Assembly: GCF_003691585.1 (NCBI RefSeq)
Contig: NZ_CP033169.1
Location: 372,001 to 436,000 of the forward strand
Reading direction: 5' to 3'
Length of the DNA stretch: 64,000 nucleotides
From: Biomaibacter acetigenes
GTDB taxonomy: Bacteria > Bacillota > Thermosediminibacteria > Thermosediminibacterales > Tepidanaerobacteraceae
The notes below the pieces were generated by a model. It made no database searches. It saw only the letters and a list, made by a program, of their open reading frames with translations, and was not told the origin of the DNA. The position numbers and the translations under genes were made by a program. The first letter of the stretch is position 1, and each line of letters starts with the position of its first letter. Positions 42,757-60,663 of the stretch are shown one piece after another.

Positions 42757-42904
42757 ATAAAATCTCCTTTGTTACGAAAATATCAACTATAACAATTTTA
42801 ACACAAAAAATTTTTTTACGTCTAGAAGGAATTTTACTTAAATATGTAGAATATATTATAAATAAACCAGTGGTCCGAATAGTAAACCAATAGGGGGCGG
42901 CGCC

Positions 42905-43669
42905 TTGAAAATTGATATATGTTGTGATATGGGTGAAAGTTTTGGTAGTTTTCGGGTGGGGATAGACGATGAGGTAGTGAAGTTTATATCTTCAGCTAAC
43001 ATCGCGTGTGGTTTTCATGGTGGGGATCCCATGGTTATTGATAAAACAGTTAAAATTTCTAAAGAACACCATGTAGCTGTTGGAGCTCACCCCGGTTTTC
43101 CCGATTTATTAGGGTTCGGCCGGAGAAATATGGATCTTACCCAACAAGAAATAAATAATTATGTAATTTACCAAATTGGTGCTCTTAAAGTTTTTGCAGA
43201 AGTTAACGGAATTGCGTTACAACATGTGAAGGCTCATGGGGCACTTTACAATATGGCGGCGGTTAATGAAACAGTTGCCCTTTCTGTGGCCGAAGCCATT
43301 GCGTCAGTTGATCCGAATTTAATATGTGTTGGTATGGCAAACACAGCAATGCAACGTGCTGCAGAAAAAGTTGGATTGAGATTTGCATGCGAAGTTTTTG
43401 CCGATCGTAACATCAACCCAGATGGGACATTAGTTTCTCGAAAACTTCCCAATGCAATGATTTATGATCATGAGGTAGCTTGTGCCAGAGTACTAAGGAT
43501 GATCAAGGAAGGAGTTGTTGAAGCTATAGATGGAAGTCTGTTACCAGTAAGAGTAGACACTATTTGTGTTCATGGGGACAATCTGGAAGCGGTAAAATTT
43601 GCACAAACTATCAAAACTGCTTTAGAAGAAAATGGTGTGGAGGTTACCCCTATGGGAACTTTCCTCTGA
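42905..43669 (+). CDS. pxpA: 5-oxoprolinase subunit A (LamB/YcsF family)
   Basis: The 254-residue protein is one of three subunits that open 5-oxo-L-proline to glutamate with ATP. The start [19 protein letters not shown], then [20 protein letters not shown] and [11 protein letters not shown] are family hallmarks containing the conserved His and Asp residues. TTG start with AGGGGGCGG upstream. pxpB follows after 15 bp. Base composition is visibly more AT-rich than flanking metabolic genes, a sign of transfer. Confidence 0.95.
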
Positions 43670-43684
43670 TGGGGGCACATAGTT

Positions 43685-44410
43685 ATGTATGAAAAACCTA
43701 GGATATTGATGTGCGGTGATAAAGCTATCGTTGTAGAATACGGTAATGAAATTAGCGAAGGATGCAATAAACAAATTATAAGTTTGTACAGGTTTTTGGT
43801 TAGAGAAAAAGTGAACGGCATTGTGTCGCTAATCCCTACTTACAGGTCTTTGTTAATAAAATTTGAACCCACACAAATATCCTTTCAACAATTAGAGGAT
43901 ATTCTTAGCCGTTTCAATCCAAAAGAAATTGAAAAAGATTTTAATCCGTTAGTAATAGAAATACCCGTGGCTTATGGAGAAGAATTTGGGCCTGATTTAC
44001 AGTATGTGGCCGAATTTCACTCTTTGACGAATGAAGAAGTTATTCAAATTCATACAGAACCACTATATCGAATCTATATGTTGGGTTTTATTATAGGGTT
44101 TGCTTATTTAGGAAATATGTCTGAAAAAATTGCAACCCCACGCCTTGATAAACCCCGAACGATTATCCCCGCAGGTTCTGTGGGAATTGCTGGTGCGCAA
44201 ACCGGAATCTACCCTCTTGATAGTCCTGGGGGGTGGCGGTTAATAGGAAAGACACCGGTCAGACTATATGACCCACAAAGAGAAAGACCGATTTTATTTC
44301 AAGCCGGTGATTATGTTCGATTTAAGCCAATTAGCCGTGAAGAATTCTTCGAAATTGAAGAAGAGGTTAAAAAAGGATCTTTTCAAGTACGAACCTATCC
44401 GTATAGCTAA
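43685..44410 (+). CDS. pxpB: 5-oxoprolinase subunit B (KipI family)
   Basis: The 241-residue protein has the KipI/PxpB plan: an N-terminal domain (MCGDKAIVVEYGNEISEG) and a C-terminal cyclophilin-like domain with YMLGFIIGFAYLGNM, TPRLDKPRTIIPAGSVGIAG and TGIYPLDSPGGWRLIGKTP. It acts with PxpC, which follows 29 bp downstream. In Bacillus KipI was first described as a kinase inhibitor, but in the ABC arrangement it is an oxoprolinase subunit. Confidence 0.95.
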   Translation: MYEKPRILMCGDKAIVVEYGNEISEGCNKQIISLYRFLVREKVNGIVSLIPTYRSLLIKFEPTQISFQQLEDILSRFNPKEIEKDFNPLVIEIPVAYGEEFGPDLQYVAEFHSLTNEEVIQIHTEPLYRIYMLGFIIGFAYLGNMSEKIATPRLDKPRTIIPAGSVGIAGAQTGIYPLDSPGGWRLIGKTPVRLYDPQRERPILFQAGDYVRFKPISREEFFEIEEEVKKGSFQVRTYPYS

Positions 44411-44439
44411 TCTATGAACAGCACAAGTGAGGGATATAA

Positions 44440-45444
44440 TTGAACGTATTCCGAGTAAATCAGCCAGGCATTTTTACCACAATTCAAGACCTTGGTCGTT
44501 TTGGATATGAAAATCAAGGGGTGCCGGTTGCCGGAGCAATGGATGAATTTGCGTTTCGAGTTGCAAATATATTAGTTGGTAATAATGAAAACACTCCTGC
44601 CTTGGAGATAACTTTATTGGGCCCCACTTTGGAGGTGCTAGAAGATACAATCGTGGCCGTAACTGGTGCTAAAATGACGCCCTTTGTGAATGGAATGAAA
44701 CGGGATTGTTGGAGTTCCTTCCCTCTTAGAAAGGGTGATATCTTATCTTTTGATTATCCCTCATCAGGCGCCCGTGCGTATCTATCTGTTGCCGGAGGCT
44801 TTTTAGGAGAATTTGCATTAGGAAGTTACTCTACATACACCAGGGGAAAAATCGGCGGAATACGTGGGAGACGCCTCGAAAAAGGAGATATTTTATCTTG
44901 CAGGTTTCCTCTTCAGTTCCCAAAAACGCAAATAGTACCCAACGAATTGATTCCGGTATATTTATCAGAAGAAGAGGTGCGGGTTATCATCGGTCCTCAA
45001 CACGATTACTTCTCACATGAAGCAATTGAAAAATTTTTGAACTCTATATTTACGATTACTAAAGATTCGGACCGAATGGGGTATAAATTGGATGGACCGG
45101 AAATCAGGGCAACGGGAAAACACGATATTATTACAGATGGATTGGTGCCTGGCGCAATTCAAGTTCCTTCAAATGGTCAGCCCATCATAATGATGAAAGA
45201 TGCGCAAACTACCGGAGGATATGCAAAAATTGCGGTAACGATTACAGCGGATCTATCTAAACTGGCACAATTAAAACCCGGCGATCGGGTGCGCTTTAAA
45301 TCAGTTGATATTAAAGAGGCTTATAAGGCATTAAAGGATCAGGAAAGAGTTCTTAAAGAAATCTACCTCCATTTAAGACCAATCAAATTTTATAATCTAA
45401 AAATCAATGGTAGAAGTTTTGAGGTTAGTATCTCCCAAATATAA
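44440..45444 (+). CDS. pxpC: 5-oxoprolinase subunit C (KipA family)
   Basis: The 334-residue protein has the family start VNQPGIFTTIQDLGRFGYEN and then VPVAGAMDEFAFRVANILVG. The conserved SDRMGYKLDGPEI and TDGLVPGAIQVPSNGQPIIM lie in the second half. The start is TTG after GTGAGGG. It completes a contiguous pxpA-pxpB-pxpC set; the full enzyme couples ATP hydrolysis to ring opening of 5-oxoproline. Confidence 0.95.
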   Translation: MNVFRVNQPGIFTTIQDLGRFGYENQGVPVAGAMDEFAFRVANILVGNNENTPALEITLLGPTLEVLEDTIVAVTGAKMTPFVNGMKRDCWSSFPLRKGDILSFDYPSSGARAYLSVAGGFLGEFALGSYSTYTRGKIGGIRGRRLEKGDILSCRFPLQFPKTQIVPNELIPVYLSEEEVRVIIGPQHDYFSHEAIEKFLNSIFTITKDSDRMGYKLDGPEIRATGKHDIITDGLVPGAIQVPSNGQPIIMMKDAQTTGGYAKIAVTITADLSKLAQLKPGDRVRFKSVDIKEAYKALKDQERVLKEIYLHLRPIKFYNLKINGRSFEVSISQI

Positions 45445-45517
45445 AACTAGTTATGACAAATTATTTCCGGTTACTCCGAATGTTTTAATGTTAAATAAAC
45501 TGAGGAGGTGAAGGCCT

Positions 45518-45529
45518 ATGGGTGCGTAA
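45518..45529 (+). other. Three-codon minigene behind a strong ribosome site
   Basis: GAGGAGGTG is followed at ideal spacing by ATG GGT GCG TAA. The frame ends 53 bp before the symporter gene. A second frame without a ribosome site (45536-45586, 16 codons) overlaps the symporter start as ATGA. These could be leader peptides or the remains of a lost gene start. Confidence 0.35.
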
Positions 45530-45582
45530 CAATTGATGATCTTATTAAGATGCTTTAATTTCAAAAAAGGGGGCATGGAAAC

Positions 45583-47025
45583 ATGATTAACTGGACTAAC
45601 ACTATCATCATTGGCGCATTTATATTGGCTAATAGTGCTGTGGGTTATTACTTTGGAAAAAAACAAACTCAAACAAGTGAAGACTTTACCGTTGGCGGAC
45701 GTAAAATGGGAACAGCTTTTTTATCTGCAGTCCTTATTGCCACTTGGGCTAGCAGCTATACCATTTTGGCCTGTGCAGAAACAAGTTATTTGAACGGTAT
45801 TAGTGGCACTATTTGGTACGCTTTTGCTGTTGCTTTCCCTATCTTGTTTTATGTATTCCCCATGCGTCTGGCAAAAAAAATTCGACAGGTTATACCGGAA
45901 GGGCATACCGTAGTAGAGTTCATTTCAATGCGATTTGACAATAAAATGCAACAACTGGCGCTTATTGTGATTCTTCTTGGAAGTGTTGTGGAAATTGTTG
46001 CCCAAATTTATGGGCTTGCACTTGTCTTTTTCCCATTTTTGGGAATCCCTATTAATATTAGCATATGGATTATCGGTTTTGCTTTTATTGTATATGTTTC
46101 CACCGGTGGTCAATGGTCGGTGGCTATAACCAGTTTCTTACTTCTGATTGTTATCTGTATCTCCTTGCTTTTGACAATCTTCTCCGGTATGTCCGTAGTT
46201 GGCAGCCCGGCAGCCATTGCTACAGCTCTCCCTGCTACTCATCATAACTTCTTTCAGTGGGGACTTTCCAGCATGATTAACTTCTTCCTGGCACTTACTG
46301 CTTTGACTCTTACAGAGCCCGTAATCTGGCAGCAAATTTTTTCAGGAAAAAATGATAGAGTAGTTGAGACTTCAACAAAGGTTATGGCTTTAGGATGGGC
46401 TCCCCTAGCCTTAGGCGGTGGTGTTATTGGTTTAATGGCAGCTAAGTATTATGGGGTTGGGAAGTTAGCTAATCCCGCTTCTGCCTCAGTGCAATTTGTG
46501 AATGACGCTTTGCCTTCTTGGATTGGCGTGATCTTCATGATTGGTTTGACTGCTGTAATTTTGTCGACCGCAGCTAGCTATCTTTCTTCGGCAGTATCTA
46601 TTGCTGTGGTTGATATTTTGAAAAAATATTTTAGACCTAATGCAACCTCCGAACAACAACTTCGTTTTGCTCGTTGGGCAACGGTTGTTATGGGTGTTGC
46701 TTCCATCTTGATTGCTTCTTATGCCCGCTCAATGGTAGAATTGTTGGTTATCCAATCAACTTTTAAAGTATCCATTCTATTCCCCTTGATTTACGGACTT
46801 TATGTTAGCAAAGAAAAGTTCACTCCCAATGGTGCATTCATTGGCACTTTAGTAGGACTTGTTGCTGCGATGCTGGTTTATGCTACAAAATTTACCCCGT
46901 TTTCATGGATGGGCTTCGATCTATTTGCTACACTATCCGCCTTGTTCCTATCAGTTATATTTTCTTTGATTGTGTCCATAATGGAATGCTCCAGCGGAAA
47001 ATCAATCGGTCAAAAAATCTCTTAA
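45583..47025 (+). CDS. Sodium:solute symporter (SSS family), probable 5-oxoproline or related importer
   Basis: The 480-residue protein has about 13 helices. SSS features are YYFGKKQTQTSEDFTVGGRK near residue 25, ATWASSYTILACAETSYL, and SISIAVVDILKKYF-like SSAVSIAVVDILKKY near residue 340. It imports a small organic solute with sodium. Its place between pxpABC and pcp suggests 5-oxoproline or pyroglutamyl compounds; this is inference, since SSS substrates cannot be read from sequence. AAAAAAGGGGGC lies upstream of ATG 45583. Confidence 0.9.
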   Translation: MINWTNTIIIGAFILANSAVGYYFGKKQTQTSEDFTVGGRKMGTAFLSAVLIATWASSYTILACAETSYLNGISGTIWYAFAVAFPILFYVFPMRLAKKIRQVIPEGHTVVEFISMRFDNKMQQLALIVILLGSVVEIVAQIYGLALVFFPFLGIPINISIWIIGFAFIVYVSTGGQWSVAITSFLLLIVICISLLLTIFSGMSVVGSPAAIATALPATHHNFFQWGLSSMINFFLALTALTLTEPVIWQQIFSGKNDRVVETSTKVMALGWAPLALGGGVIGLMAAKYYGVGKLANPASASVQFVNDALPSWIGVIFMIGLTAVILSTAASYLSSAVSIAVVDILKKYFRPNATSEQQLRFARWATVVMGVASILIASYARSMVELLVIQSTFKVSILFPLIYGLYVSKEKFTPNGAFIGTLVGLVAAMLVYATKFTPFSWMGFDLFATLSALFLSVIFSLIVSIMECSSGKSIGQKIS

Positions 47026-47045
47026 ACGAAGGGGAGGTATGAACA

Positions 47046-47180
47046 ATGACGCAACCCGTATGGTTCTTGGGAACAACCGCTTTTTATGCAGTGGTTATAT
47101 TAAGTTTGATTGGTGCGTCTGGAGTAGCCTTGTATCTATCAATTGTCGGATGGATTGAACGTAAAGAGTTACTTAAGTAA
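47046..47180 (+). CDS. 44-residue membrane protein, likely symporter accessory subunit
   Basis: The frame encodes MTQPVWFLGTTAFYAVVILS followed by a second hydrophobic stretch (LIGASGVALYLSIVGWIERK) and ends LLK. A single long helix spans residues 12-35, with a WxxRKE-type charged C terminus. AAGGGGAGGT lies 8 nt before the ATG. It starts 20 bp after the symporter and ends 15 bp before pcp, so it is part of the operon. Short one-helix proteins accompany some SSS and related sodium symporters, which is the likely role here. Confidence 0.75.
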   Translation: MTQPVWFLGTTAFYAVVILSLIGASGVALYLSIVGWIERKELLK

Positions 47181-47195
47181 ATTGGGGGATAGATA

Positions 47196-47849
47196 ATGAA
47201 TAAGATCATTTTACTAACCGGATTCGAACCATTTGGTGGGGATTCGATAAACCCTTCGCTAGAAATTGCGAAGAATCTTCAAGGAAAAGATTTTGATGGA
47301 TTTATCGTTAAGGCGTTGGAGGTTCCTGTTCGTGATACAAAATGTTTAAATGTAATGGAAAATGCGATCAAAGAATATCAACCGTCAGTTATTATAAGTG
47401 TAGGGTTGGCATGGGGAAGGTCAGCAATTTCATTGGAGAGGATCGGCATCAATACAAGAGATTATCCAATTCCTGACAATGATGGCCAGCAACCGATCAA
47501 TCAGCCGATCGATCCTGAGGGGCCTGCAGCTTATTTTTCAACATTACCGATTCGAGCTATTGTTAAGGAACTCCGTGATAGTGGCATCCCTGCCTATATT
47601 TCCAACACAGCAGGGACCTATTTGTGCAATCAAGTTATGTACGGGACTTTAAACTACATTACAAAAAATCAACTGCCTATTAAATCTGGTTTTATTCATA
47701 TACCATATCTTTCTTCCCAGATTGCACAAAAAGGAGAAATAATCCCATCTTTGCCATTTGAGACATTAGTAAATTCAATTGAAATAGCAATAAAAACCTC
47801 AATTAGGCAACAAGAAGACATTCTGTTAATAGCAGGTGCGGTAAATTGA
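47196..47849 (+). CDS. pcp: Pyrrolidone-carboxylate peptidase (pyroglutamyl peptidase I, C15)
   Basis: The 217-residue cytosolic cysteine peptidase removes N-terminal pyroglutamate from peptides. The family start LLTGFEPFGGDSINPSLEIA and all three catalytic positions are visible: Glu in ISLERIGINTRDYPIPDNDG, Cys in SNTAGTYLCNQVMYG and His in GFIHIPYL. ATTGGGGGA precedes the ATG. It closes the island operon by supplying 5-oxoproline to PxpABC. Two hairpins follow its stop. Confidence 0.95.
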   Translation: MNKIILLTGFEPFGGDSINPSLEIAKNLQGKDFDGFIVKALEVPVRDTKCLNVMENAIKEYQPSVIISVGLAWGRSAISLERIGINTRDYPIPDNDGQQPINQPIDPEGPAAYFSTLPIRAIVKELRDSGIPAYISNTAGTYLCNQVMYGTLNYITKNQLPIKSGFIHIPYLSSQIAQKGEIIPSLPFETLVNSIEIAIKTSIRQQEDILLIAGAVN

Positions 47850-47987: not shown

Positions 47988-49465
47988 ATGTTAACGAAGA
48001 AAAGACGAGAAATAATAGAGCAGATAGAATTAGTAAGCATTGATAGCTTAGTACCTAAAGACCATCTCCTCAGGACAATAGAAGAAAGCATCAACTTTAA
48101 CTTCATATATAACGAAGTAAAAGACCTATACAGCGAAAATACAGGCAGACCCAGCATTGATCCAGTGGTATTAATAAAACTGCTCATGCTCCAAGCACTG
48201 TATGGAATCCGCTCTATGCGCCAAACCATCAAAGAAGCAGAAGTCAATATGGCTTACCGCTGGTTTCTAGGATATGGGCTCCAAGAAAAAATACCTCACT
48301 TCTCGACTTTTGGAAAAAACTATGAACGGCGGTTTAAAGAAAGCGATCTATTTGAAAAGATATTCGAACGAATATTAAAAGAAGCCATAGAGTGCGGGTT
48401 TATCAAAGAAGACGCGGTATTTATCGATGCCACCCACATAAAAGCCAGTGCCAATAAGAATAAATACATAGAGAAAGTTGCAAAAAAGCAGGTACAAAAA
48501 TACAAGAAAGAACTTTTAAAAGAAATCAACGCCGAAAGAGAAGCCAACGGCAAAGAACCGTTTGAAGAAGATGACGATGAAGCTAGCGGCGATGCCGAAG
48601 GAGGAAACAGCTCCACCAACGGAAAACGAGTAAAGATAAGCACCACCGATCCTGAAAGCGGCATATTCCAAAAAGGAGAAAAAGAGCGCTGCTTTGCCTA
48701 CACGGCTTCTGTAGCCTGCGACCGCAACAACTTCATCCTTGGCTTCAAAATAGCACCTGGAAATGTACACGACAGCCAGGTATTCTCCGATCTTTTTCAA
48801 GAAGTAAACGATAAATTTCCCGAAATAAAAGCAGTAGTGGTTGATGCAGGCTACAAGACCCCGGCATATGCAGAGAAATCATTGAAGCGGAAATACTTCC
48901 TGTCATGCCATATAAAAGGCCAATGACCAAAGATGGCTACTTTAAAAAGAGAGAATACGTATATGACGAATATTATGACTGCTACATATGCCCTAACAAC
49001 CAAGTATTAAAATACAGCACCACCAACCGGTCAGGATACCGGGAATACAAGAGCGATCCACAAATATGCCGGGAATGCCCCATGCGTTTGAGATGCACAC
49101 AGAGCAAAAACTACACGAAAGTGGTAACCCGGCACATATGGGAGCACTATGTGGAAATAGCAGAAGATATAAGGCACACCGAATTAGGCAAAGAATTATA
49201 CAAGATGCGCTGCCAGACCATCGAGCGGGTATTTGCCGATGCCAAAGAAAAGCATGGTATGCGTTATACGAATCTAAGAGGCTTGAGCAAAGTAGGACAT
49301 TATCTCACGCTTCTTTTCGCATGCATGAATTTAAAAAAGCTGGCCATGTGGAAGAGAAAACGTGGGATGTTTCCACCGGCAGCCCCTGCTTTGCATTCAT
49401 TTTTCTTTATGATTTTAAAATTTTTTGCTTCAAATAAAAAACCGCTTTTAGGTTGTGCGTTCTAA
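47988..49465 (+). pseudogene. IS1182-family transposase, broken by a one-base frameshift
   Basis: Part one (47988-48926) has the N-terminal helical domain (KKRREIIEQIELVSIDSLVP; GRPSIDPVVLIKLLMLQALY) and DDE-type segments (FIDATHIKASANKNKY; VVVDAGYKTPAYAEK). Part two continues from MPYKRPMTKDGYFKKREYVY with the Cys-rich CRECPMRLRC and the final acidic TIERVFADAKEKHGM. Adding one A to the AAA at 48876-48878 restores AEKIIEAEILPVMPYKRPM in one frame, so a single deletion split the gene. Unless frameshifting rescues it, the element cannot move by itself. Confidence 0.85.
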
Positions 49466-49970: not shown

Positions 49971-50612
49971 ATGGATAAGTTAAAAGTTATGCAGCGCATC
50001 ATGGACTGCGGCATTGTGGCCGTGGTCAGGGCCGACTCTCCCGATCAGGCGCTGAAAATCGCCGATGCCGTAAAAGCCGGTGGGGTGGAAGCCATTGAAA
50101 TAACTATGACGGTGCCTGGAGCCATTGATGTAATAAGGGAACTCAAGAAGGCTTATCCGAAGGGAGAGATACTCATCGGGGCAGGCACGGTGCTGGACCC
50201 GGAGACCGCCAGGGCTGCCATGCTGGCAGGAGCCGAGTTTTTTGTAAGCCCCTACTTTAACCCCGAGATGGTAAAGCTGTGCAACAGGTATCAAAAAGTT
50301 ACCATGCCGGGAGCCATGTCTATAAAGGAAGTGGTGGAGGTCATGGAATCCGGTGCTGATTTTGTAAAACTATTCCCCGGCAGCGCTTTTGGGCCTTCCA
50401 TGGTTAAGGCCATCATGGGACCGCTTCCCTATGCTCCCATTATTCCCACCGGCGGTGTGAGCCTTGAAAATGTAGGCGAGTGGATTAAAGCAGGATGTGT
50501 GGCCGTCGGCGTCGGTGGAGAGCTCACCAAAGGAGCAAAGAAAGGAAACTATGAAGAAGTCCAGGAGACCGCCAGGAAGTTCGTGGAAGCCATAAAAGAG
50601 GCACGCAATTAA
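49971..50612 (+). CDS. eda: KDPG aldolase (2-dehydro-3-deoxyphosphogluconate aldolase)
   Basis: The 213-residue class I aldolase splits 2-keto-3-deoxy-6-phosphogluconate to pyruvate and glyceraldehyde-3-phosphate. The catalytic Glu lies in VEAIEITMTVPGA near residue 43. GAGTVLDPETARAAMLAGA is typical, and the Schiff-base Lys is in ADFVKLFPGSAFGP near residue 130. IPTGGVSLENVGEW binds phosphate. AAGGAGG precedes the ATG. It forms a unit with KDG kinase 115 bp downstream. Confidence 0.93.
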   Translation: MDKLKVMQRIMDCGIVAVVRADSPDQALKIADAVKAGGVEAIEITMTVPGAIDVIRELKKAYPKGEILIGAGTVLDPETARAAMLAGAEFFVSPYFNPEMVKLCNRYQKVTMPGAMSIKEVVEVMESGADFVKLFPGSAFGPSMVKAIMGPLPYAPIIPTGGVSLENVGEWIKAGCVAVGVGGELTKGAKKGNYEEVQETARKFVEAIKEARN

Positions 50613-50727: not shown

Positions 50728-51753
50728 ATGCCCAATAAAATAGTTACTTTTGGTGAAATCATGCTGCGGCTTACACCACCAAATTACCTCAGGTTTGTGC
50801 AGGCCGATTCCTTTGATGTGACTTACGGCGGTGGAGAGGCCAATGTGGCGGTATCTCTTGCCAACTACGGTGAAGATGCCTACTTTGTGACAAAGGTGCC
50901 GGACAATCCCATCGGACAGTCGGCCATAAACCACCTTCGCCGCTATGGTGTGCATACCGATTATGTGGTGAAAGGTGGAGAGAGGCTGGGCATCTACTTC
51001 AACGAAATTGGCGCATCTCAGAGGCCATCTCTGGTGGTCTACGACCGGAGCCATTCGGCCATAGCGGAATCCAGCCCCTCGGATTTTAATTGGGAAAAGA
51101 TTCTAGCAGGAGCAAAGTGGTTCCACTTCACAGGCATAACCCCTGCTCTTGGGGACAATACCGCCCAGGCGTGCCTTGATGCTGTCAAAACCGCTAAAAA
51201 TCTGGGCGTTACCGTGAGCTGCGATCTCAACTACAGGAAGAAGCTCTGGTCCACCGAAAAGGCCGGTAAGGTAATGACAGGCCTTATGGAATACGTGGAT
51301 GTAGCCATCGGCAATGAGGAAGATGCCGAGAAAGTATTTAATATAAAGGCTGGGACCTCCGATGTGACCAAAGGAGAGCTCAGCGAAGAAGGTTATAAAG
51401 ACGTGGCAAGGCAGCTCCAGGAGAAGTTCTCTCTGAAAGGCGTGGCTATAACCTTAAGGGAAAGCTTCTCGGCTTTCGACAACGGCTGGTCAGCCCTCTA
51501 TTACGATGGTAAAGAATACTACAAGTCCAGAAGATACCAGATTCACATTGTTGACCGCGTGGGCGGCGGCGATTCCTTCGGTGGCGGATTAATCTATGCC
51601 CTGTGCAATGGTTATGCTCCCCAGGATGCGGTGGAATTTGCCGTGGCGGCATCCTGCCTGAAACATTCCATCGTCGGCGACTTCAACCATGTGACATTGA
51701 AAGAAGTTCAGACCCTGGCCAAAGGCGACGCCTCCGGCAGGGTGCAGAGGTAA
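50728..51753 (+). CDS. kdgK: 2-keto-3-deoxygluconate kinase (PfkB family)
   Basis: The 341-residue ribokinase-fold enzyme makes KDPG from KDG and ATP, feeding the aldolase upstream. Motifs are TFGEIMLRLTPPNYLRFVQA at the start, the lid TYGGGEANVAVSLANYGEDA near residue 32, and the catalytic RVGGGDSFGGGLIYALCNG near residue 275, where the usual DTTGAGD is changed to DRVGGGD with the base Asp kept. This variant and length are typical of KdgK. AAAGGAG precedes the ATG. Confidence 0.9.
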   Translation: MPNKIVTFGEIMLRLTPPNYLRFVQADSFDVTYGGGEANVAVSLANYGEDAYFVTKVPDNPIGQSAINHLRRYGVHTDYVVKGGERLGIYFNEIGASQRPSLVVYDRSHSAIAESSPSDFNWEKILAGAKWFHFTGITPALGDNTAQACLDAVKTAKNLGVTVSCDLNYRKKLWSTEKAGKVMTGLMEYVDVAIGNEEDAEKVFNIKAGTSDVTKGELSEEGYKDVARQLQEKFSLKGVAITLRESFSAFDNGWSALYYDGKEYYKSRRYQIHIVDRVGGGDSFGGGLIYALCNGYAPQDAVEFAVAASCLKHSIVGDFNHVTLKEVQTLAKGDASGRVQR

Positions 51754-51812: not shown

Positions 51813-51971
51813 AACTAGATTGATTATGAGTTAAACATGATGAATTATGATTTTAGCCTTACCGCATATGGCGCAGCACTTTTTTTATTTTATTTTTTTT
51901 GTTAAAAAAATTTTAAGATTAAGCAGGAATTTTAAAATTAACATCGAATATATATTATAAAAATGACAACG

Positions 51972-52003
51972 ATTGCACAAACGTTTCTACAAACCATTGC
52001 ACA
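51972..52003. promoter_or_regulatory. Candidate LacI-family operator upstream of the regulator gene
   Basis: ATTGCACA occurs twice, 24 bp apart (51972 and 51996), and a palindrome AAACGTTT lies at 51979-51986. A TATTAT -10-like box sits at 51953-51958, so the site would cover the transcription start, as expected for autorepression. Binding by the LacI protein encoded at 52114 is inference. Confidence 0.5.
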
Positions 52004-52113
52004 ATCCTTATCAGGAGAGAAATGGTCTTAAAGGAAATTATTTCAAGTTAGAAACAATTATTGTAGATTAGCAAAACTCAATCCTTTAAAGCTTTAAGCA
52101 AGGAGGTTTTGAA

Positions 52114-53106
52114 TTGGTCACTATCAAAGAAGTGGCAGAGAGGGCGGGAGTATCTACCAGCACGGTATCCCGGGCCCTCAGCGGCAAGATACCGGTAAAT
52201 GATGAAACAAAGCAGAAGGTTCTTCTGGCTGTAAAAGAACTAAACTACCAGCCCAATGTGTTGGCACAGGGGTTAAAAGATGGTAAAAGCAGAACCCTGG
52301 GGCTTATCATTCCCAATGTGCGCAACCTGGTGTTCCCTGCAGCCATCCGCGGCATAGAGGATATGGCCAAAAAACATGGATACACCGTGGTCCTGTGCAA
52401 CACCGATGAGGATGTCGAAACCGAAAAGTTTTATATAGACAATCTCCGGCGGCGCCTCATAGACGGATTTATCTTTTCCACCGCCCGCCCTGGCCATGAA
52501 CACTTGTTGGAATTAAAAAGAGAGGGCTTTCCCGTGGTGTTTCTCATAAGGCAGATGGGGGAAGATGTGGATACCATAACCGTCGACAATTATAAGGGTG
52601 CCTATGACGCTACAAAATACATGCTGTTACGAGGTTTAAAAAATATAGCCTTTATAAACGGCCATATGGATATCTTCCTTTACCAGCAGAGGTTCGAAGG
52701 ATATAAGAAAGCCCTGGAAGAGGCCGGGTTCCCTTTCAAAGAAGAAATGGTGGTCCATGAAGTCTATGGATGGGAAGATGGCTATCAGGCCATGACAAAT
52801 CTCCTGAAAAAAAACCTCAAAATTGACGGCGTTTTTGCCACCAGCGACCCGAAAGCTATAGGGGTTATCCGGGCGATAAAGGACTTCGGCCTCAAGGTCC
52901 CGGACGATATTTCTGTCATGGGCTTTGATAACTCTGATATGGCACCGCTTTTAGATCCGCCTTTAACCACCGTTTCCCAGCCCTTCTATGAGATGGGGGC
53001 AAAGGCCTGTGAAAGGCTCATAAAGATAATAGAGGCCAAAAAGAAGCCGAAAGCAAAGGTGGAAGTTCTGCCAGCAGAGATAGTAGTAAGAAAGTCGGTT
53101 GTATAA
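52114..53106 (+). CDS. LacI-family transcriptional regulator
   Basis: The 330-residue regulator has the LacI helix-turn-helix at residues 1-22 (VTIKEVAERAGVSTSTVSRA), a hinge near 50, and a periplasmic-binding-protein-like effector domain (SRTLGLIIPNVRNLVFPAAI; VMGFDNSDMAPLLDPPLTTV). TTG start with AAGGAGG 7 nt upstream. It lies between the KDG genes and the TRAP transporter and probably controls both. The effector may be KDG, KDPG or the imported sugar acid. Confidence 0.92.
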   Translation: MVTIKEVAERAGVSTSTVSRALSGKIPVNDETKQKVLLAVKELNYQPNVLAQGLKDGKSRTLGLIIPNVRNLVFPAAIRGIEDMAKKHGYTVVLCNTDEDVETEKFYIDNLRRRLIDGFIFSTARPGHEHLLELKREGFPVVFLIRQMGEDVDTITVDNYKGAYDATKYMLLRGLKNIAFINGHMDIFLYQQRFEGYKKALEEAGFPFKEEMVVHEVYGWEDGYQAMTNLLKKNLKIDGVFATSDPKAIGVIRAIKDFGLKVPDDISVMGFDNSDMAPLLDPPLTTVSQPFYEMGAKACERLIKIIEAKKKPKAKVEVLPAEIVVRKSVV

Positions 53107-53294: not shown

Positions 53295-54347
53295 ATGCAT
53301 CTTAAAAAATTTCTTGTAATTTGTCTAGTTTTACTACTTTCAGTATCTCTTCTTGCAGGTTGTGGCCAGAAGGCCCAGCAGCCCCAGCAGAGCCAGAGCA
53401 ATAGTCAACCTTCGGGTAGTAACCAGTCGGGTAGCCAGGATAAAATCATTATTAAGCTTGGCGACGTGCTGGCAGAAGATCACCCTCATACCCAGGCTTA
53501 CCATTTCTTTGCAAAAAGGATGAGTGAACTCACCAACGGAAAAGTTGAAGTCCAGGTATTTCCAAACTCACAGCTTGGCAACCAGAGGGATATGGTAGAG
53601 GGTATGCAGATGGGTACCCTTCAGATGGGCAAATCCATGATGACGGTGCTCTCCGGTTTTCTACCTGAAGTTCAGGTATTTGACCTGCCGTATATTTTCA
53701 GAGACAGAGACCATTTTTATAAGGTTCTGGATGGCCCCATAGGCCAGAGCTTCTTGCATGAGAAATTGCCTAAGATCGGTTTAATAGGTGTGGCGCTCTT
53801 TGATGCAGGTGTGAGAAGCGTGTATAATTCAAAAAGACCTATTAAGACATTGGATGACATGAAAGGCCTTAAACTTAGAGTTCCTGAAAGCCCCATTTAT
53901 ATCGATATGATGTTCGCTTTCGGTGCCACCGGAACACCCATGGCAGTTGGCGAAATGTATACTGCCCTTCAGACCCATGTAATCGATGGCGCAGAGAACG
54001 CCCCTATATTTTATAATTCTCAGAAACACTATGAAGTTTCAAAGTATTTCTCATATACAAACCATATCATGACTCCGGACGTTTTATTGATGAGCAAAAA
54101 ATTCTATGATACTTTGCCAAAAGATGTTCAAGAAGCAGTATTAAAAGCCGGACTGGAAGCCCAGCAGTATGAGAGAAAACTATGGCAGGACCTTGAAAAT
54201 AAGACTATAGAAGAACTGAAGGCCAAAGGTGTAGAATTCAATGAAGTTGATACTACCCCATTTAAGGAAGCTGCTAAAAAGGTATGGGAAAAATACCAGG
54301 ATAAACTGGGCAAAGATTTGATCCAGCAGATTGTGGATACGAAGTAA
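53295..54347 (+). CDS. dctP: TRAP transporter solute-binding lipoprotein (DctP family)
   Basis: The 350-residue extracytoplasmic protein has a lipoprotein signal (LLAGC near residue 21) and a Gln/Ser-rich linker. The DctP fold shows IKLGDVLAEDHPHTQAYHFF, the conserved ligand-binding Arg in MKGLKLRVPESPIY and the QTHVIDGAEN segment. TRAP systems import carboxylated substrates with an ion gradient; linkage to eda/kdgK points to a sugar acid. ATG 53295 after GAGGGAGG is preferred over an upstream TTG. A hairpin separates it from dctQ. Confidence 0.92.
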   Translation: MHLKKFLVICLVLLLSVSLLAGCGQKAQQPQQSQSNSQPSGSNQSGSQDKIIIKLGDVLAEDHPHTQAYHFFAKRMSELTNGKVEVQVFPNSQLGNQRDMVEGMQMGTLQMGKSMMTVLSGFLPEVQVFDLPYIFRDRDHFYKVLDGPIGQSFLHEKLPKIGLIGVALFDAGVRSVYNSKRPIKTLDDMKGLKLRVPESPIYIDMMFAFGATGTPMAVGEMYTALQTHVIDGAENAPIFYNSQKHYEVSKYFSYTNHIMTPDVLLMSKKFYDTLPKDVQEAVLKAGLEAQQYERKLWQDLENKTIEELKAKGVEFNEVDTTPFKEAAKKVWEKYQDKLGKDLIQQIVDTK

Positions 54348-54353
54348 GATAAA

Positions 54354-54377
54354 GGGGTTTGGCTTGAGCCAAACCCC
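54354..54377 (+). promoter_or_regulatory. Strong hairpin between dctP and dctQ
   Basis: GGGGTTTGGCT/AGCCAAACCCC is an 11-bp perfect stem with a two-base loop and only a weak T tract. It probably stabilises the dctP message or partly terminates, giving more binding protein than membrane subunits. Confidence 0.7.
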
Positions 54378-54403
54378 GGATTTTACTCCGAGGGAGGGAT
54401 ATT

Positions 54404-54883
54404 ATGGAGGCTTTGAGAAAATATCTTATCAAGTTTGAAGAACACCTTCTTTTTCTGCTCATGGGGGTAATGACGGTAGTTACTTTTGCGCAAGTTTTTT
54501 TCCGGTTTGTGCTGAATTCACCTCTGGCATGGTCGGAAGAATTGGCAAGATATCTCTTTGTTTGGATAACTTTTATTGGTGCAAGTGTAGCCCTGCATCG
54601 ATGGGGGCATTTTCAGGTGGATATAGTAGTAAATCTTTTTCCCGATAAAGTTAAAAGAATAACTGAAATAGTTGTTTATTTATTGATCATGATTTTTGCT
54701 TTTATCATGGTGTATTACGGATTTATTCTGGTTCAATACACTTCTACCCAGCTATCTCCTGCACTTCAGTTGAATATGGCAATACCGTATTTTGCATTGC
54801 CTTTGTCCGGCATACTGATCTTTTTTCACACTCTTGAAAGACTTTTATTTAAAGATAATGGAGGGAAAGGGGAAGAAAAATAA
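54404..54883 (+). CDS. dctQ: TRAP transporter small membrane subunit (DctQ family)
   Basis: The 159-residue protein has four helices. The family segment AWSEELARYLFVWITFIGAS lies near residue 45, followed by ALHRWGHFQVD. It forms the membrane complex with DctM, whose start codon overlaps the last base of its stop. GGGAGGG precedes the ATG. Confidence 0.93.
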   Translation: MEALRKYLIKFEEHLLFLLMGVMTVVTFAQVFFRFVLNSPLAWSEELARYLFVWITFIGASVALHRWGHFQVDIVVNLFPDKVKRITEIVVYLLIMIFAFIMVYYGFILVQYTSTQLSPALQLNMAIPYFALPLSGILIFFHTLERLLFKDNGGKGEEK

Positions 54884-56157
54884 TGGCCATATTATTCCTG
54901 CTACTGGCAGTATTTTGTCTTATGGGATTGCCTGTAGCCTTTGCCATAGCACTGGCTTCCACTTATGGCGTCATATCTGCAGGCAACATTCCGCTTATGG
55001 TAGTGGTTCAGAGAATGTTTACCCAGATCGATTCCTTTCCCCTCATGGCTGTACCCTTTTTCATGCTGGCAGGGAACCTGATGGACCGGGGCGGGATTTC
55101 ACTAAAGATCATAAACTTTGCCAGTAATCTTGTAGGCCACATTAAAGGAGGCCTGGCAATGGTATCGGTGGTAGCCTCCATGTTTTTTGCCGGCATATCG
55201 GGTTCCGCATCTGCCGATAGTGCAGCCATAGGTTCGGTTTTAATTCCGGCTATGGAAAAAAAGAACTATGGAAAAAGCTTTGCGGCATCCCTGACTGCCA
55301 CTGCCGGGTCCATAGGAGTAATAATCCCCCCAAGTATCCCAATGGTAATATACGCTATTACCGGAAGTGTCTCCATAGGCAAATTATTTTTAGGTGGATA
55401 TATTCCCGGATTGATGATCGGTCTTGGTTTAATGGCAGTAAGCTTCTATTTTGCCATAACAAGGGGATACCCGGCAGAACCCAGAGCAAGCCTGAAAAGC
55501 CTCTGGAAAAGCTTTGTAGAATCCATATGGGCACTGCTCATGGTGGTAATAATTATGGGAGGAATCTTAACCGGGGCTTTTACTGCCACCGAAGCTTCAG
55601 TGGTAGCTGTCGTTTATGCTATCATTGTAGGCATGTTTGTCTATAAGCAGTTGAAATTAAGCGACCTTCCCAGGATTTTCATCGAAAGCGGTGTAACCAC
55701 AGCGGTGGTAATGTTCTGTGTGGCCGCTACAGCCATACTATCATGGATTTTAACAAACCAGCAGGTTCCAGTTAAAATGGCTGCTGCAATTTTAGCTATT
55801 ACGCAAAATCCAATTATAATATTGATATTAATTAATATAATACTATTATTTTTAGGCACAATTCTTGATACCACACCGGCTATTATCCTAATAGTTCCCA
55901 TCCTGTTGCCTATCGTGACGAAGTTGGGGGTAGATCCCATACATTTTGGCCTCATAACTGTTACAAACCTGGCTATAGGTATGAGCACTCCACCGGTAGG
56001 TATTACTCTATTTGTATCGTCCGGTATCGCAAACTTGCCTATGTCAAAAATGTTAAAATCCTTAGTGCCCTTTTGGGCTGTAATGGTTTTCATACTCGGA
56101 TTGATCACATTTGTTCCGGGAATAACCATGTATTTACCAAACAAGTTCATGCCATAA
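54883..56157 (+). CDS. dctM: TRAP transporter large membrane subunit (DctM family)
   Basis: The 424-residue transport subunit has about 12 helices. DctM features are GLPVAFAIALASTYGVISAG at the start, MLAGNLMDRGGISLKIINFA, ATAGSIGVIIPPSIPMVIYA and NLAIGMSTPPVGITLFVSSG. It carries the ion-coupled transport path. The dehydrogenase gene follows after 14 bp, so transporter and enzymes are probably co-transcribed. Confidence 0.95.
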   Translation: MAILFLLLAVFCLMGLPVAFAIALASTYGVISAGNIPLMVVVQRMFTQIDSFPLMAVPFFMLAGNLMDRGGISLKIINFASNLVGHIKGGLAMVSVVASMFFAGISGSASADSAAIGSVLIPAMEKKNYGKSFAASLTATAGSIGVIIPPSIPMVIYAITGSVSIGKLFLGGYIPGLMIGLGLMAVSFYFAITRGYPAEPRASLKSLWKSFVESIWALLMVVIIMGGILTGAFTATEASVVAVVYAIIVGMFVYKQLKLSDLPRIFIESGVTTAVVMFCVAATAILSWILTNQQVPVKMAAAILAITQNPIIILILINIILLFLGTILDTTPAIILIVPILLPIVTKLGVDPIHFGLITVTNLAIGMSTPPVGITLFVSSGIANLPMSKMLKSLVPFWAVMVFILGLITFVPGITMYLPNKFMP

Positions 56158-56171
56158 AGGAGGAAAACATA

Positions 56172-57257
56172 ATGCCATTTGCTATGGTACTGGAAGAGTT
56201 CAATAAACCCCTGGTCTTGAGGGAGTTTCCTGAACCGGATTTAAAGCCTGGGGAGGTATTGGTAAAAATTGAAGCTGCAGGAGTATGCGGTTCCGATGTG
56301 CATATGTGGAGGGGAAATGATCCCAGGACACCACTTCCCATAATTCTGGGTCATGAAGGTGTGGGAAGAGTAAAAAAAATAAATGGAAAGAAAAGAACTG
56401 TCTTAGGAGAGAAAATCAAGGAAGGGGATATGATCCTCTGGAACCGAGGAGTTTCATGTGGCCACTGTTATTTCTGTTCGGTCAAAAAAGAACCTTCTCT
56501 CTGTACCAACAGGTGGGTCTACGGCATAAATGTGAGTTGCGGTGAGCCTCCTCATCTAAAGGGTTGCTATGCGGAAGAAGTGCTGCTAAGTTCTGATACG
56601 GATATTTTTAAGGTACCGGAGTCGGTAGACCCGGCGGTTCTGGTGCCTGTTTCATGTTCCGGAGCTACTATCGCCCATGCCTTTGATCTGGCAAAACCGG
56701 AAGAAGGAGATAAAATACTTATCCAGGGTCCCGGACCACTTGGCATTTTCGCCACTGCCTTTGCAAAGGCATATGGAGCCAGCGAAATCATCATCATCGG
56801 CGGTACTGAAGAAAGACTGGAGATGGCCAAGCGCTTTGGTGCCACTTTTGCTATAAACCGAAAGAAATTAAGTCCTGAACAAAGAAAGGAAATGGTTATG
56901 GAAAGGACCCATGGTCTGGGAGCGGACATAGCAGTGGAAGCTACCGGCCAGCCCGATGCCGTAAGCGAGGGTATAGACCTTGTACGCCGCGGTGGTAAAT
57001 ATCTAATGGCGGGTTTTGGAGACCCTAATGGTACCGTTACACTGGACTGCTATAAAGATATAGCCCACAAAAATATCAATATACAAGGGGTCTGGGTTAG
57101 TGATACAAAGCATACTCATATGGCCTTAAAACTTCTATTAAATAATTTGAACCTATTTTCCGAACTGGTAAGTCATCGGCTGCCGCTTGATAAAGCTAAT
57201 GAAGCGCTGGAACTTATGGAGAGTAAAAAGGCAACAAAGGTAGTATTGACACCATAG
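56172..57257 (+). CDS. Zinc-dependent alcohol/polyol dehydrogenase (MDR superfamily)
   Basis: The protein of about 361 residues is an NAD(P)-linked medium-chain dehydrogenase. The catalytic-zinc region is AAGVCGSDVHMW and GHEGVGRV. The structural-zinc cysteines are in CGHCYFCSVKKEPSLC. The Rossmann motif is IQGPGPLGIFATAFAKAYGA near residue 185. The start at 56172 follows AAGGAGG. By context it may oxidise the imported sugar acid or polyol at a secondary hydroxyl; the substrate is not known. Confidence 0.9.
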   Translation: MPFAMVLEEFNKPLVLREFPEPDLKPGEVLVKIEAAGVCGSDVHMWRGNDPRTPLPIILGHEGVGRVKKINGKKRTVLGEKIKEGDMILWNRGVSCGHCYFCSVKKEPSLCTNRWVYGINVSCGEPPHLKGCYAEEVLLSSDTDIFKVPESVDPAVLVPVSCSGATIAHAFDLAKPEEGDKILIQGPGPLGIFATAFAKAYGASEIIIIGGTEERLEMAKRFGATFAINRKKLSPEQRKEMVMERTHGLGADIAVEATGQPDAVSEGIDLVRRGGKYLMAGFGDPNGTVTLDCYKDIAHKNINIQGVWVSDTKHTHMALKLLLNNLNLFSELVSHRLPLDKANEALELMESKKATKVVLTP

Positions 57258-57277
57258 ATTTTAAAAGGGGTGAGAAA

Positions 57278-58447
57278 ATGGCAGATATTTCTACAACTTA
57301 TCTTGGACTAAAACTTGAGAGTCCCCTCATAGCCGCCTCTTCAGGTGTAACAGGAACTGTAGAGCGCATGAAAAGGGCACAAGAACAGGGAATCGGTGCA
57401 GTTGTGGTGAAATCAATGTTTGAAAACTCCATAAGCAGGGAATCGCCGACACCGCGCTTTAAAATAATAAATAGGAACCTAAAAAGTCAGAGGTCTTTTG
57501 TCTTTTATTCTTATGAACAGGCCAGTGAATTTGATATAGATAGATATGTGGAGGAGATTTATCGAGCAAAAAAAGAGCTTTCGATTCCGGTAATACCAAG
57601 TATAAATTGTATAACCGATGACGGTTGGAAGGAATATGCAAAGAAGTTGGAAGAAGCAGGTGCCGATGCTCTAGAATTGAATGTGTCATGTCCTCACGGT
57701 TCCATCATTTTTACGGGCAAAGACAATGTTGCTGATGAAATGATAAGGATAACTCGAATGGTAAGACAGACAGTGCAAATCCCTATAGCAGTGAAAATGA
57801 GTGCTCAGTTGACTGCACCTCTGATAGTGGCAAAGGGCCTTCAGGATGCCGGTACCGACGGAGTTGTGATGTTCAACAGGCTGGTGGGACTTGATATAGA
57901 CATAGATGAGGAAAAGCCCATCCTTCACGGTGGCTATGCAGGTCATGGCGGCCCCTGGGCGATTCATTATCCTCTTCGATGGATAAGTGAAGCATCACCT
58001 GTTTTAAACATAGATATATGCGGTACCAGTGGCGTGGCAAATTACGCTGATGTGGTAAAGTATATACTGGCCGGTGCAAAAGCAGTAGAGTTTTGCACCG
58101 CGATCTTTTTGGAAGGATATATGATTATCAAAGAATTCAATAAAGGCCTGGGTGAGTGGATGGATAAAAAAGGATACAAGTCCATCGAAGATTTTAGAGG
58201 AAAAGTTTCCGGAAAAGCCATTCTTGGCACCAATGAAATCGATAGAAGGCATGGTAAAGTAGCATTGATTGATGAACAAAAATGTATCGCTTGTGGAAAG
58301 TGTGAAAAGGTATGTCTGTATGATTCGGTAGTGCCGTCAGGAGGAAAATTCAAGATAAAGGACACCTGCGATGGTTGCGGCATGTGTGTTCAGGTATGTC
58401 CGGTGAAAGCCATAGATATGGTAAAATATAGCAATGATTTTACTTGA
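57278..58447 (+). CDS. Dihydroorotate/dihydropyrimidine-dehydrogenase-like flavoprotein with 2 [4Fe-4S] clusters
   Basis: The 389-residue protein has an FMN-binding TIM barrel (residues 1-300; TTYLGLKLESPLIAASSGVT; ALELNVSCPHGS; VKMSAQLTAPLIVAKGLQDA; ICGTSGVANYADVVKYILAG). A C-terminal 2[4Fe-4S] ferredoxin domain follows (CIACGKCEKVCLYD and CDGCGMCVQVCP). This resembles PreA of dihydropyrimidine dehydrogenase, but no PreT partner is next to it. It probably reduces or oxidises a C-C double bond with ferredoxin-type electrons. It lies 20 bp after the dehydrogenase. Confidence 0.85.
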   Translation: MADISTTYLGLKLESPLIAASSGVTGTVERMKRAQEQGIGAVVVKSMFENSISRESPTPRFKIINRNLKSQRSFVFYSYEQASEFDIDRYVEEIYRAKKELSIPVIPSINCITDDGWKEYAKKLEEAGADALELNVSCPHGSIIFTGKDNVADEMIRITRMVRQTVQIPIAVKMSAQLTAPLIVAKGLQDAGTDGVVMFNRLVGLDIDIDEEKPILHGGYAGHGGPWAIHYPLRWISEASPVLNIDICGTSGVANYADVVKYILAGAKAVEFCTAIFLEGYMIIKEFNKGLGEWMDKKGYKSIEDFRGKVSGKAILGTNEIDRRHGKVALIDEQKCIACGKCEKVCLYDSVVPSGGKFKIKDTCDGCGMCVQVCPVKAIDMVKYSNDFT

Positions 58448-58500
58448 TAAAGGTTTGTTTTTATAATGTAAACTTGAATTGAGAGAACGAGGGATATGAT

Positions 58501-58737
58501 TTGAAGATAAATAATATTGATTTTTTAAAGGGTACCGACTTTCCTGCAGGCAGACATACTCGAGTGTTGGTAGGCCCCGGAGCTCAGATCGAAGCTCAGA
58601 ATTTTGTCATGGGGCATGTAACAATATATCCCGGGGGATGTGTGCCGTTACATTCCCATGAGCAGGAAGAAGTATATTTGATTTTAAGTGGAAAAGGCTT
58701 AATTTTTATTAATGATTTAAATCTACCTTTATTTTAA
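58501..58737 (+). CDS. Cupin-domain protein, apparently C-terminally truncated
   Basis: The 78-residue protein has the first cupin motif with metal ligands (GGCVPLHSHEQEEVYLILSG), then ends after GLIFINDLNLPLF. Small cupins normally continue with a second motif carrying another His, and this is missing, so the barrel is incomplete. Start is TTG. The tail and the following AT-rich 90 bp look like a deletion or frameshift scar. The intact relative might have been an isomerase or sensor for the sugar acid. Confidence 0.65.
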   Translation: MKINNIDFLKGTDFPAGRHTRVLVGPGAQIEAQNFVMGHVTIYPGGCVPLHSHEQEEVYLILSGKGLIFINDLNLPLF

Positions 58738-58826
58738 AAAGGAATATATAATATTTATTTATTTATGTCACTATGCAGCATAAATCTTTTAATGTTAAGA
58801 CATGTAATTTTCCGGAGGAAGAAGAT

Positions 58827-60663
58827 ATGAAAATCTTAGATTGCGACATCCTTGTAGTTGGCGGCGGGGGTGCCGCCCTGAGGGCTGCCATAGCCGCAAA
58901 GGAATACAATAAAGATTTAAGGGTGCTGATTGCCACCAAAGGCAAGCTTGGAAAAAGCGGAGTCACCGCTACGGCCTGTTCCGACCGCATGGCCTTTCAT
59001 GCCACTCTTGACCATACCGAGCCGGGCGGACCCGGCAGCTGGCGGTATCATGCCGACGACATATACCGCATAGGTGGGAAAGTCTCGGATTACAAACTGG
59101 CCGAGGGTCCTGGCCAGAAACGCAAAAGACGCCTTTGAATACCTGGATAAGCTGGGGGTACCCTTTGTGAAGAAAAACGGACTGCCGGACCAGTTTGTGA
59201 CCGACGGTTCGGAATATGCCCGGGCGTGTTATACGGGGCCTTATACTGCCGTTCATATTGAAGAAGCTTTGATAAAAAGATTCGAAGAAATGGATATCAA
59301 TGTGCTGGATTTTTGCATGGTAGCTCGCCTGGTGAAGCATGATGGGCGGGTGGTCGGAGCGGTGGCCCTGGATACCCGGGAAAAAGATTTGGAAAAAGCT
59401 GCTATAGCCATATCTGCCGGGGCAGTCATCCTTGCCACCGGTGGAGGAGGCATGATCTATGAACACAATGTTTTTCCAGCGGGTATGACGGGAGATGGTT
59501 ATGCTCTGGCTTATGAAGCAGGGGCGGAGCTGGTGAACATGGAGTTCATACAGATAGGAATAGCTTCCGTCAAAACCAAATTTAACTGCTCAGGAAGTAT
59601 GATGAGGGCTGTACCGCGTATTATCAACGATGCCGGCGAGGAATTTTTGAAAAAGTACTTTCCCGAGGGCACATCCTGTGAAGAAATATATAACACCTTA
59701 TTTAAAAAGGGTGCCAGCTGGCCGGTTTCTTATGAGCACAAGACCCACATTATCGACATTGCTCTTTATAAGGAAATGAAGGCCGGACACAGGGTGTTCC
59801 TTGATTACGGCAGAAACCCCGAAGGATTCAGATTCGATATGCTCTCTGAGGAAAACCGGACCCGATACCGCCGGGAACAAACCCGTGATATTGGTGAACA
59901 AAAGAGAAACGAGTCCCCATTATACAGGCTGATGGAAATAAACGAGCCCTCTGTAAAATGGTTTTCGGACAGGGGCATAGATTTGACAAAAGGCGAGCTC
60001 ATAGAAGTGGCAGCATGCGCCCAGCATTTCCAGGGAGGCGTGAAGATCGACGAACATGCCAGGACTACCGTGCCGGGATTGTGGGCGGTGGGAGAATCCG
60101 CCGGAGGCCAGCATGGAGCCAACAGGCCCGGCGGCAATGCCCTCCTTGACTGCCAGGTGTTCGGCAGGATAGCGGGAGAGGACGCTGCACAAGAGGTATT
60201 AAAAAAAGGTAGTAGTATAAATGATGCAACAGATTGCATCGATGCCGATGCCGGAAAGCTCATACAACTGCTGAATTCTGCAAACAGCGGTGAAATTAGC
60301 GCGGAAAAAATGCGAAAAAACCTCCAGAAGATAGTGGAGGGCGGAGCAGGAGTGGTGAGGACCGGCGAAGGACTTCAAAAAGCCCTGCAAGAACTAAAGG
60401 ATCTTAAAATAAAAAAGCATTTTATCGATGAACACGGCTCAGCATATTTTATAGAAAATCAAAACATGATGATGGTGGCCGAAATGGTCCTGTCCGCAGC
60501 CCTTATGCGGGATGAAAGCCGGGGGCCGCACTTGAGGTTTGATAGGTATGATGATAACACTCCAATAGCGAGAAAAGATCCCGAATGGGAAAAATATATC
60601 GTGATTTATAAAAAGGGCGAGGATATGGTTCTTGAAAAAAGGCAGCCGATAATATCATCCTAG
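58827..60663 (+). pseudogene. FAD-binding flavoprotein of the FrdA/SdhA/AprA type, broken by a one-base frameshift
   Basis: The N-terminal FAD site is VVGGGGAALRAAIAAKE. The frame then reads DYKLAEGPGQKRKRRL and stops. The expected VLARNAKDAFEYLDKLGVPF is in the next frame; deleting one G at 59105-59107 restores a protein of about 612 residues. The rest has GAVILATGGGGMIYEHNVFP, GLWAVGESAGGQHGANRPGG and a C-terminal helical domain. At the position where fumarate reductases have QFHPTG this protein has QIGIAS, so it is not a normal fumarate reductase. GGAGGAAG precedes ATG 58827. Confidence 0.8.

Follow-up and report, generated by a model that had tools for sequence, protein, structure and literature searches.

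Downstream of the sugar-acid genes eda and kdgK of Biomaibacter acetigenes lie genes for an importer, a Zn-dependent dehydrogenase, a PreA-like iron-sulfur (Fe-S) flavoprotein, a cupin and an FrdA-like flavoprotein. Do these genes form one pathway, and if so, for which compound? The locus was analysed in a window of 64,000 nucleotides (GCF_003691585.1, contig NZ_CP033169.1, positions 372,001-436,000 of the forward strand), and coordinates below are those of the window unless a locus (L) or genome (G) label is given. Judged from sequence, the chances are even that these genes are a version of a redox module, so far uncharacterised, that acts on sugar acids of the hexuronate type. In such a module, a hexuronate or a close derivative would be imported via the tripartite ATP-independent periplasmic (TRAP) transporter, the Zn-dehydrogenase would act on a secondary alcohol, the FrdA-like flavoprotein would perform a C-C redox step near a carboxylate, and a flavin mononucleotide (FMN)/Fe-S barrel protein, PreA-like in the window and old yellow enzyme (OYE)-like in relatives, would reduce a C=C bond or pass electrons. 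The product would enter the 2-keto-3-deoxygluconate (KDG) branch formed by KdgK and Eda, either at KDG or at the level of tagaturonate or altronate. We infer the substrate class from several neighbourhood signals together with the relationship of DctP, and the enzyme classes suggest oxidation, elimination or electron transfer, and C=C reduction as the chemistry; the order and chemistry of the steps are speculative.

The original prediction placed these genes as one set on one strand, downstream of eda and kdgK and sharing a LacI regulator with them. All of them, lacI included, are present in the order given here, with short gaps between the module genes:

49971..50612, + strand: eda, 2-keto-3-deoxy-6-phosphogluconate/2-keto-4-hydroxyglutarate aldolase (NF005119, 294 bits, cut-off 238; TIGR01182, 191 bits, cut-off 156)
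50728..51753, + strand: kdgK-like PfkB sugar kinase (PF00294)
51970..52007, + strand: putative LacI operator array before lacI (CGATTGCACAAACG and CCATTGCACAATCC), with similar arrays in relatives
52114..53106, + strand: LacI-family regulator (PF00356/PF13377)
53295..54347, + strand: dctP, TRAP solute-binding protein of the hexuronate-binder type (TIGR00787)
54404..54883, + strand: dctQ, TRAP small permease (PF04290)
54883..56157, + strand: dctM, TRAP large permease (PF06808)
56172..57257, + strand: Zn-dependent dehydrogenase, module core (PF08240/PF00107)
57278..58447, + strand: PreA-like FMN barrel with two 4Fe-4S motifs and no PreT partner (PF01180 and Fer4)
58504..58737, + strand: cupin, second half missing by alignment to the whole cupins of G001 and G004
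58830..60663, + strand: FrdA-like flavin adenine dinucleotide (FAD) protein gene, two overlapping frames, broken near 59,105 (PF00890, PF02910)

Conservation of the module and its FMN/Fe-S partners

Conservation was surveyed in 398 genomes from 267 genera of the window's phylum; the window genome is labelled G000, G001 is of the same genus and G004 of the same family. The results showed that the FrdA-like family occurs in 23 of the genomes and 12 of the genera, and that a Zn-dehydrogenase (49-62% identical) accompanies the FrdA-like gene in 18 other loci, in gene orders that include LacI-Zn-dehydrogenase-FrdA-OYE and PreA-FrdA-Zn-dehydrogenase. Its recurrence in further genera and families shows that the arrangement is more than accidental. 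G000, G057, G247, G338 and the g140 genomes carry a close PreA relative that stands alone (46-57%). In the neighbourhood search that the original prediction had proposed, all ten genomes with such a relative (five families) had the PreA-like gene next to the FrdA-like gene, in most cases together with the same Zn-dehydrogenase and in some with KdgK and Eda; direct contact is interrupted in the window by the cupin remnant. The PreA-like, cupin and FAD genes had been expected to stay together in other genomes. This was the case for the PreA-like, FAD and Zn-dehydrogenase genes, but outside the family of the window no cupin accompanies the module, and the window copy is truncated.

An OYE-like partner was found in G004, G109, G121, G137, G145, G228, G255, G278, G323 and G396, in G137 on a contig other than that of the module. 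This protein has about 450 residues, with a conserved C-x2-C-x2-C motif and one more cysteine, and both partners bear FMN-barrel and Fe-S motifs. None of the 18 genomes in which the two partners were tested carries both, and G001 and G183 carry neither. In a tree of the FrdA-like proteins, for which the two open pieces of the window gene were joined end to end unaltered, the PreA label has to change twice or more; of the three members in the small family of the window, one has a PreA partner, one an OYE partner and one no partner. Such a swap of a dihydroorotate dehydrogenase (DHOD)-type for an OYE-type FMN/Fe-S partner around one FrdA-like protein is an unusual non-orthologous replacement within an enzyme set.

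A scan with a single sequence against genome contigs mainly reached distant PreA homologues, and a search of plasmids gave relatives of 30-33% only. No close FrdA relative was found in the ten named genomes searched, and literature searches revealed no description of the redox module. Two further arrangements were seen. At L023:4898-7474 and L025:8596-11145, single chains of about 850 residues, encoded near sugar genes of the Gfo/Idh type, join a PreA-like barrel to a GltD/PreT-like domain and have Fe-S motifs at the C-terminus. At L028:6797-17371 and L118:5315-15555, a second, distinct PreA-like and FrdA-like pairing stands with aconitase X-like, RraA-like, UbiD-like and TRAP genes, as recognised by eye.

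Probable link to hexuronate catabolism and the supply of KDG

The proposed link with sugar-acid catabolism gained support from the neighbouring genes and from DctP. KdgK and Eda adjoin the module in seven genomes (G000, G001, G004, G057, G137, G145 and G396), KdgK being mostly accompanied by Eda. The kdgK orthologues beside the module are 93-95% identical in G001 and G004 and 65-72% in G137, G145 and G396, and the LacI orthologues are 84-93% identical within the family and 53-63% with the module elsewhere. In G145 and G396 (the f53 genomes, both of one genus), Eda, KdgK, an ATP-binding cassette (ABC) transporter, Zn-dehydrogenase, FrdA and OYE read as one operon. Altronate dehydratase adjoins the module in G109, and does so together with tagaturonate reductase in G255 and G278. 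In the g140 genomes, the neighbours of the module include a PcRGLX homologue and a protein that qualifies as a true beta-glucuronidase (855 bits, cut-off 544). The best solved relatives of DctP include the hexuronate binders 4mhf, 4n15 and 4n91; the very best matches, 4x8r and 4n8y, are presumably uronate-bound. In the alignment to the closest solved proteins, DctP keeps the two arginines and one asparagine named for glucuronate-binding TRAP proteins (PMC7660916). By sequence, DctP is a TRAP binding protein related to glucuronate and galacturonate binders. A UroD/MtaA-like gene also adjoins the module in several genomes (L082, L084, L085 and L087) and is possibly tied to methylated substrates.

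According to the original prediction, no dehydratase or isomerase feeding KDG is present. This holds at the locus but not genome-wide, as tagaturonate reductase (UxaB; 683 bits, cut-off 359), altronate dehydratase (UxaA; PF04295, 178 bits over cut-off), an IolB-family protein and a second TRAP system are encoded at ~2.22 Mb of G000. No match to UxaC (PF02614) or UxuA (PF03786) was found in G000, and a divergent UxaC-like protein is absent too; the Pfam search for UxaC is insufficient alone, since it misses a divergent UxaC-like neighbour of UxuA/UxuB in some relatives. The sole IlvD/EDD of G000 fits the biosynthetic enzyme, since the gene beside it reads like the small subunit of acetolactate synthase. 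The g140 genomes carry UxaC and UxuA.

Two proteins seen in these searches are candidate isomerases. A conserved protein of about 418 residues at L108:2769-4022, beside UxuA/UxuB-like genes, matches no Pfam or NCBIfam family, has relatives in G057, G121 and G338, and looks like a divergent uronate isomerase. The IolB-family protein of G000 (TIGR04378, 237 bits), which stands with tagaturonate reductase and altronate dehydratase at L113:11662-15671 (G000:C1 ~2,217,700-2,221,700) in an order also found in G001, G255 and G278, may be the missing uronate isomerase.

Several observations weigh against a module that converts a hexuronate. The transporters beside the module vary widely (TRAP, ribose-type ABC, Liv-type ABC), and different genomes may therefore use different substrates; the neighbours in G001 include CoA-transferase-, enoyl-CoA hydratase- and MaoC-like genes. 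Few independent events underlie the mutual exclusion of PreA-like and OYE-like partners, and G000 can obtain KDG through UxaB and UxaA. For the module speaks that no UxaC, UxaC-like variant, UxuA, UxaB, UxaA, IolB- or KduI-family protein was found in G145 and G396, although enolase-superfamily dehydratases were not searched for there.

A different role is a real if somewhat less probable alternative: KDG would come from the tagaturonate-altronate route, and the module would handle a co-entering compound, such as a modified (e.g. O-methylated or unsaturated) uronate or a glucuronide aglycone. The toolkit of OYE-like protein, FrdA-like protein and dehydrogenase would then work as in bile-acid or isoflavone reduction, in which BaiCD-type Fe-S flavoenzymes act with FrdA-like partners. 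The presence of UxaB and UxaA in G000, G001, G255 and G278 is consistent with this role, as are the UroD/MtaA-like gene beside the module in several genomes, the beta-glucuronidase neighbours in the g140 genomes and the weak resemblance of the OYE-like protein to BaiCD and bilirubin reductase. However, no corrinoid protein was recognised by eye beside the UroD-like gene, and for the G145/G396 operon, which includes KdgK and Eda, no other source of KDG was found among those tested.

G145 and G396 are also the best case for a module that makes KDG, because the KDG-feeding families tested are absent save for one IlvD in G145; in these genomes the module itself may reach KDG. The conversion to KDG by the module enzymes, as originally proposed, is plausible mainly there, but in G000 UxaB and UxaA are available. 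We regard it as rather unlikely that the module is a complete redox route from hexuronate to KDG that bypasses the known isomerases and dehydratases. In such a route, three oxidoreductases would strip off a hydroxyl through oxidation, elimination and C=C reduction, the G145/G396 operon would be the complete pathway, and PreA-like and OYE-like proteins would be interchangeable reductases. Reduction of an unsaturated uronate as the sole role of the FrdA-like protein was not favoured, since one reductase would suffice: the open form of an unsaturated uronate needs only one to reach KDG.

Uronates are major components of pectin and glucuronoxylan. The putative redox module for hexuronate-type acids, whose three uncharacterised oxidoreductase genes recur with genes for the breakdown of plant sugar acids in several distantly related anaerobes, suggests an undescribed step in that breakdown. 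A published metabolic reconstruction of Caldicellulosiruptor reports that the usual steps for galacturonate downstream of UxaC are absent (PMC8579813). In gene content, the g140 genomes seem to be similar to this genus. Gaps of this kind become directly testable with a conserved module that comprises few candidate enzymes and that relatives of this strain carry in intact form.

Damage and regulation in the window

The original prediction listed the FrdA-like gene without mention of damage. In the window it is split into two overlapping frames (58830-59138 and 59074-60663) with a break near 59,105. The FrdA-like frames of relatives are open (596-664 residues), and intact orthologues of 612-620 residues are 82-85% identical. 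The cupin stops after 77 residues, where its relatives run about 50 residues further, and lacks the second of the two motifs that a complete cupin enzyme (e.g. of the KdgF type) would have. Whole copies of both genes are present in G001 and G004. Strong constraint still acts on the FrdA-like codons before and after the break (dN/dS 0.05-0.12), and the window protein has a short end branch in the FrdA tree, suggesting that the break either arose very recently or reflects a sequencing error. More sequence has gone from the truncated cupin than at the frame break. If the break is real, this strain probably has an impaired module.

It is conceivable, with a probability like that of the co-entering compound, that the locus in this strain is a decaying remnant, in which the UxaB/UxaA route continues to rely on eda, kdgK and lacI while the oxidoreductases no longer cooperate. 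The deletion of half of the cupin, the broken FrdA-like frame and the absence from the window of an AroE-like gene that belongs to the G001 and G004 loci agree with decay, but the Zn-dehydrogenase and PreA-like genes are intact, and the constraint around the FrdA-like break and its short branch point to a very recent loss or to a sequencing error. An IS1182-like transposase gene, split into two overlapping frames (47988-49465), lies directly upstream of eda. At 42866-47849, further upstream, inspection by eye suggested a 5-oxoproline-type operon (LamB/YcsF, PxpB- and PxpC-like), a pyroglutamyl peptidase and a transporter of the SSS type.

Comparison of lacI upstream regions revealed a ATTGCACAA-type site array before lacI in the window and six relatives (G001, G004, G109, G228, G255 and G278). 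The array was not found before eda or dctP in the window, and a scan for CG-centred palindromes found no operator. The LacI gene does sit with eda and kdgK as originally described, but with the array standing only before lacI, its control of these two genes is hypothetical. No terminator was predicted between lacI and dctP, so the genes from lacI through the FAD gene may share one transcript. The dctP-dctQ gap contains a strong 10-pair hairpin (54354-54377), which lacks a clear T run and may serve in processing or attenuation.

Comparison with known systems

That an ordinary pyrimidine dehydrogenase and fumarate reductase lie by chance beside sugar-acid genes is highly improbable and these identities were rejected: superfamily matches (PF01180, Fer4, PF00890 and PF02910) would suit them, but the scores fall far under the curated PreA and FrdA/SdhA/NadB cut-offs, the active-site residues differ as given below, and the adjacency is conserved alongside sugar-acid genes. 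Because of these scores and lost residues, the names PreA and FrdA give no transferable function.

With PreTA and dihydropyrimidine dehydrogenase, the PreA-like protein shares a DHOD-type FMN barrel fused to two 4Fe-4S motifs. It differs in its score (229 bits, curated PreA cut-off 335), in its sugar-acid neighbourhood and in having no cysteine in the loop after SCPHG, where we take the catalytic cysteine of the pig enzyme to lie; nine relatives lack it as well. As originally noted, no PreT-type partner or fused NAD(P)H domain was found in or beside the window gene, whereas fused PreA/NAD(P)H-domain forms exist in G037 and G057.

The FrdA-like protein has the general FAD fold and C-terminal domain of FrdA, SdhA and NadB and keeps the arginine of HGANRPGGN. 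The claimed loss of the fumarate-site HPT was confirmed, the stretch reading NMEFIQIGIAS. E. coli FrdA His355 aligns with a glutamine in the family, the capping region is too divergent for alignment, the region of the catalytic FrdA Arg287 does not align, and no FrdB or membrane subunit is present; the best score of the intact G004 protein against the curated FrdA/SdhA/NadB models was 313 bits (cut-off 718).

In combining an OYE-type Fe-S reductase, an FrdA-like reductase and an alcohol dehydrogenase, the module resembles OYE/BaiCD-type systems, but its OYE-like protein scores 79 bits against a BaiCD cut-off of 825, is apparently without an NAD(P)H domain and has a sugar-acid neighbourhood. 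The closest solved relative of the window Zn-dehydrogenase is that of Thermotoga maritima (1vj0, 416 bits; next 135), for which no function was reported in the literature found. With the isomerase pathway (UxaC, UxuAB, UxaAB, KdgK, Eda), the module shares KdgK and Eda, a hexuronate-type TRAP binder and, in relatives, UxaA and UxaB neighbours. It differs from that pathway in being without its isomerase or dehydratase and in adding a Zn-dehydrogenase, an FrdA-like FAD protein and an FMN/Fe-S protein.

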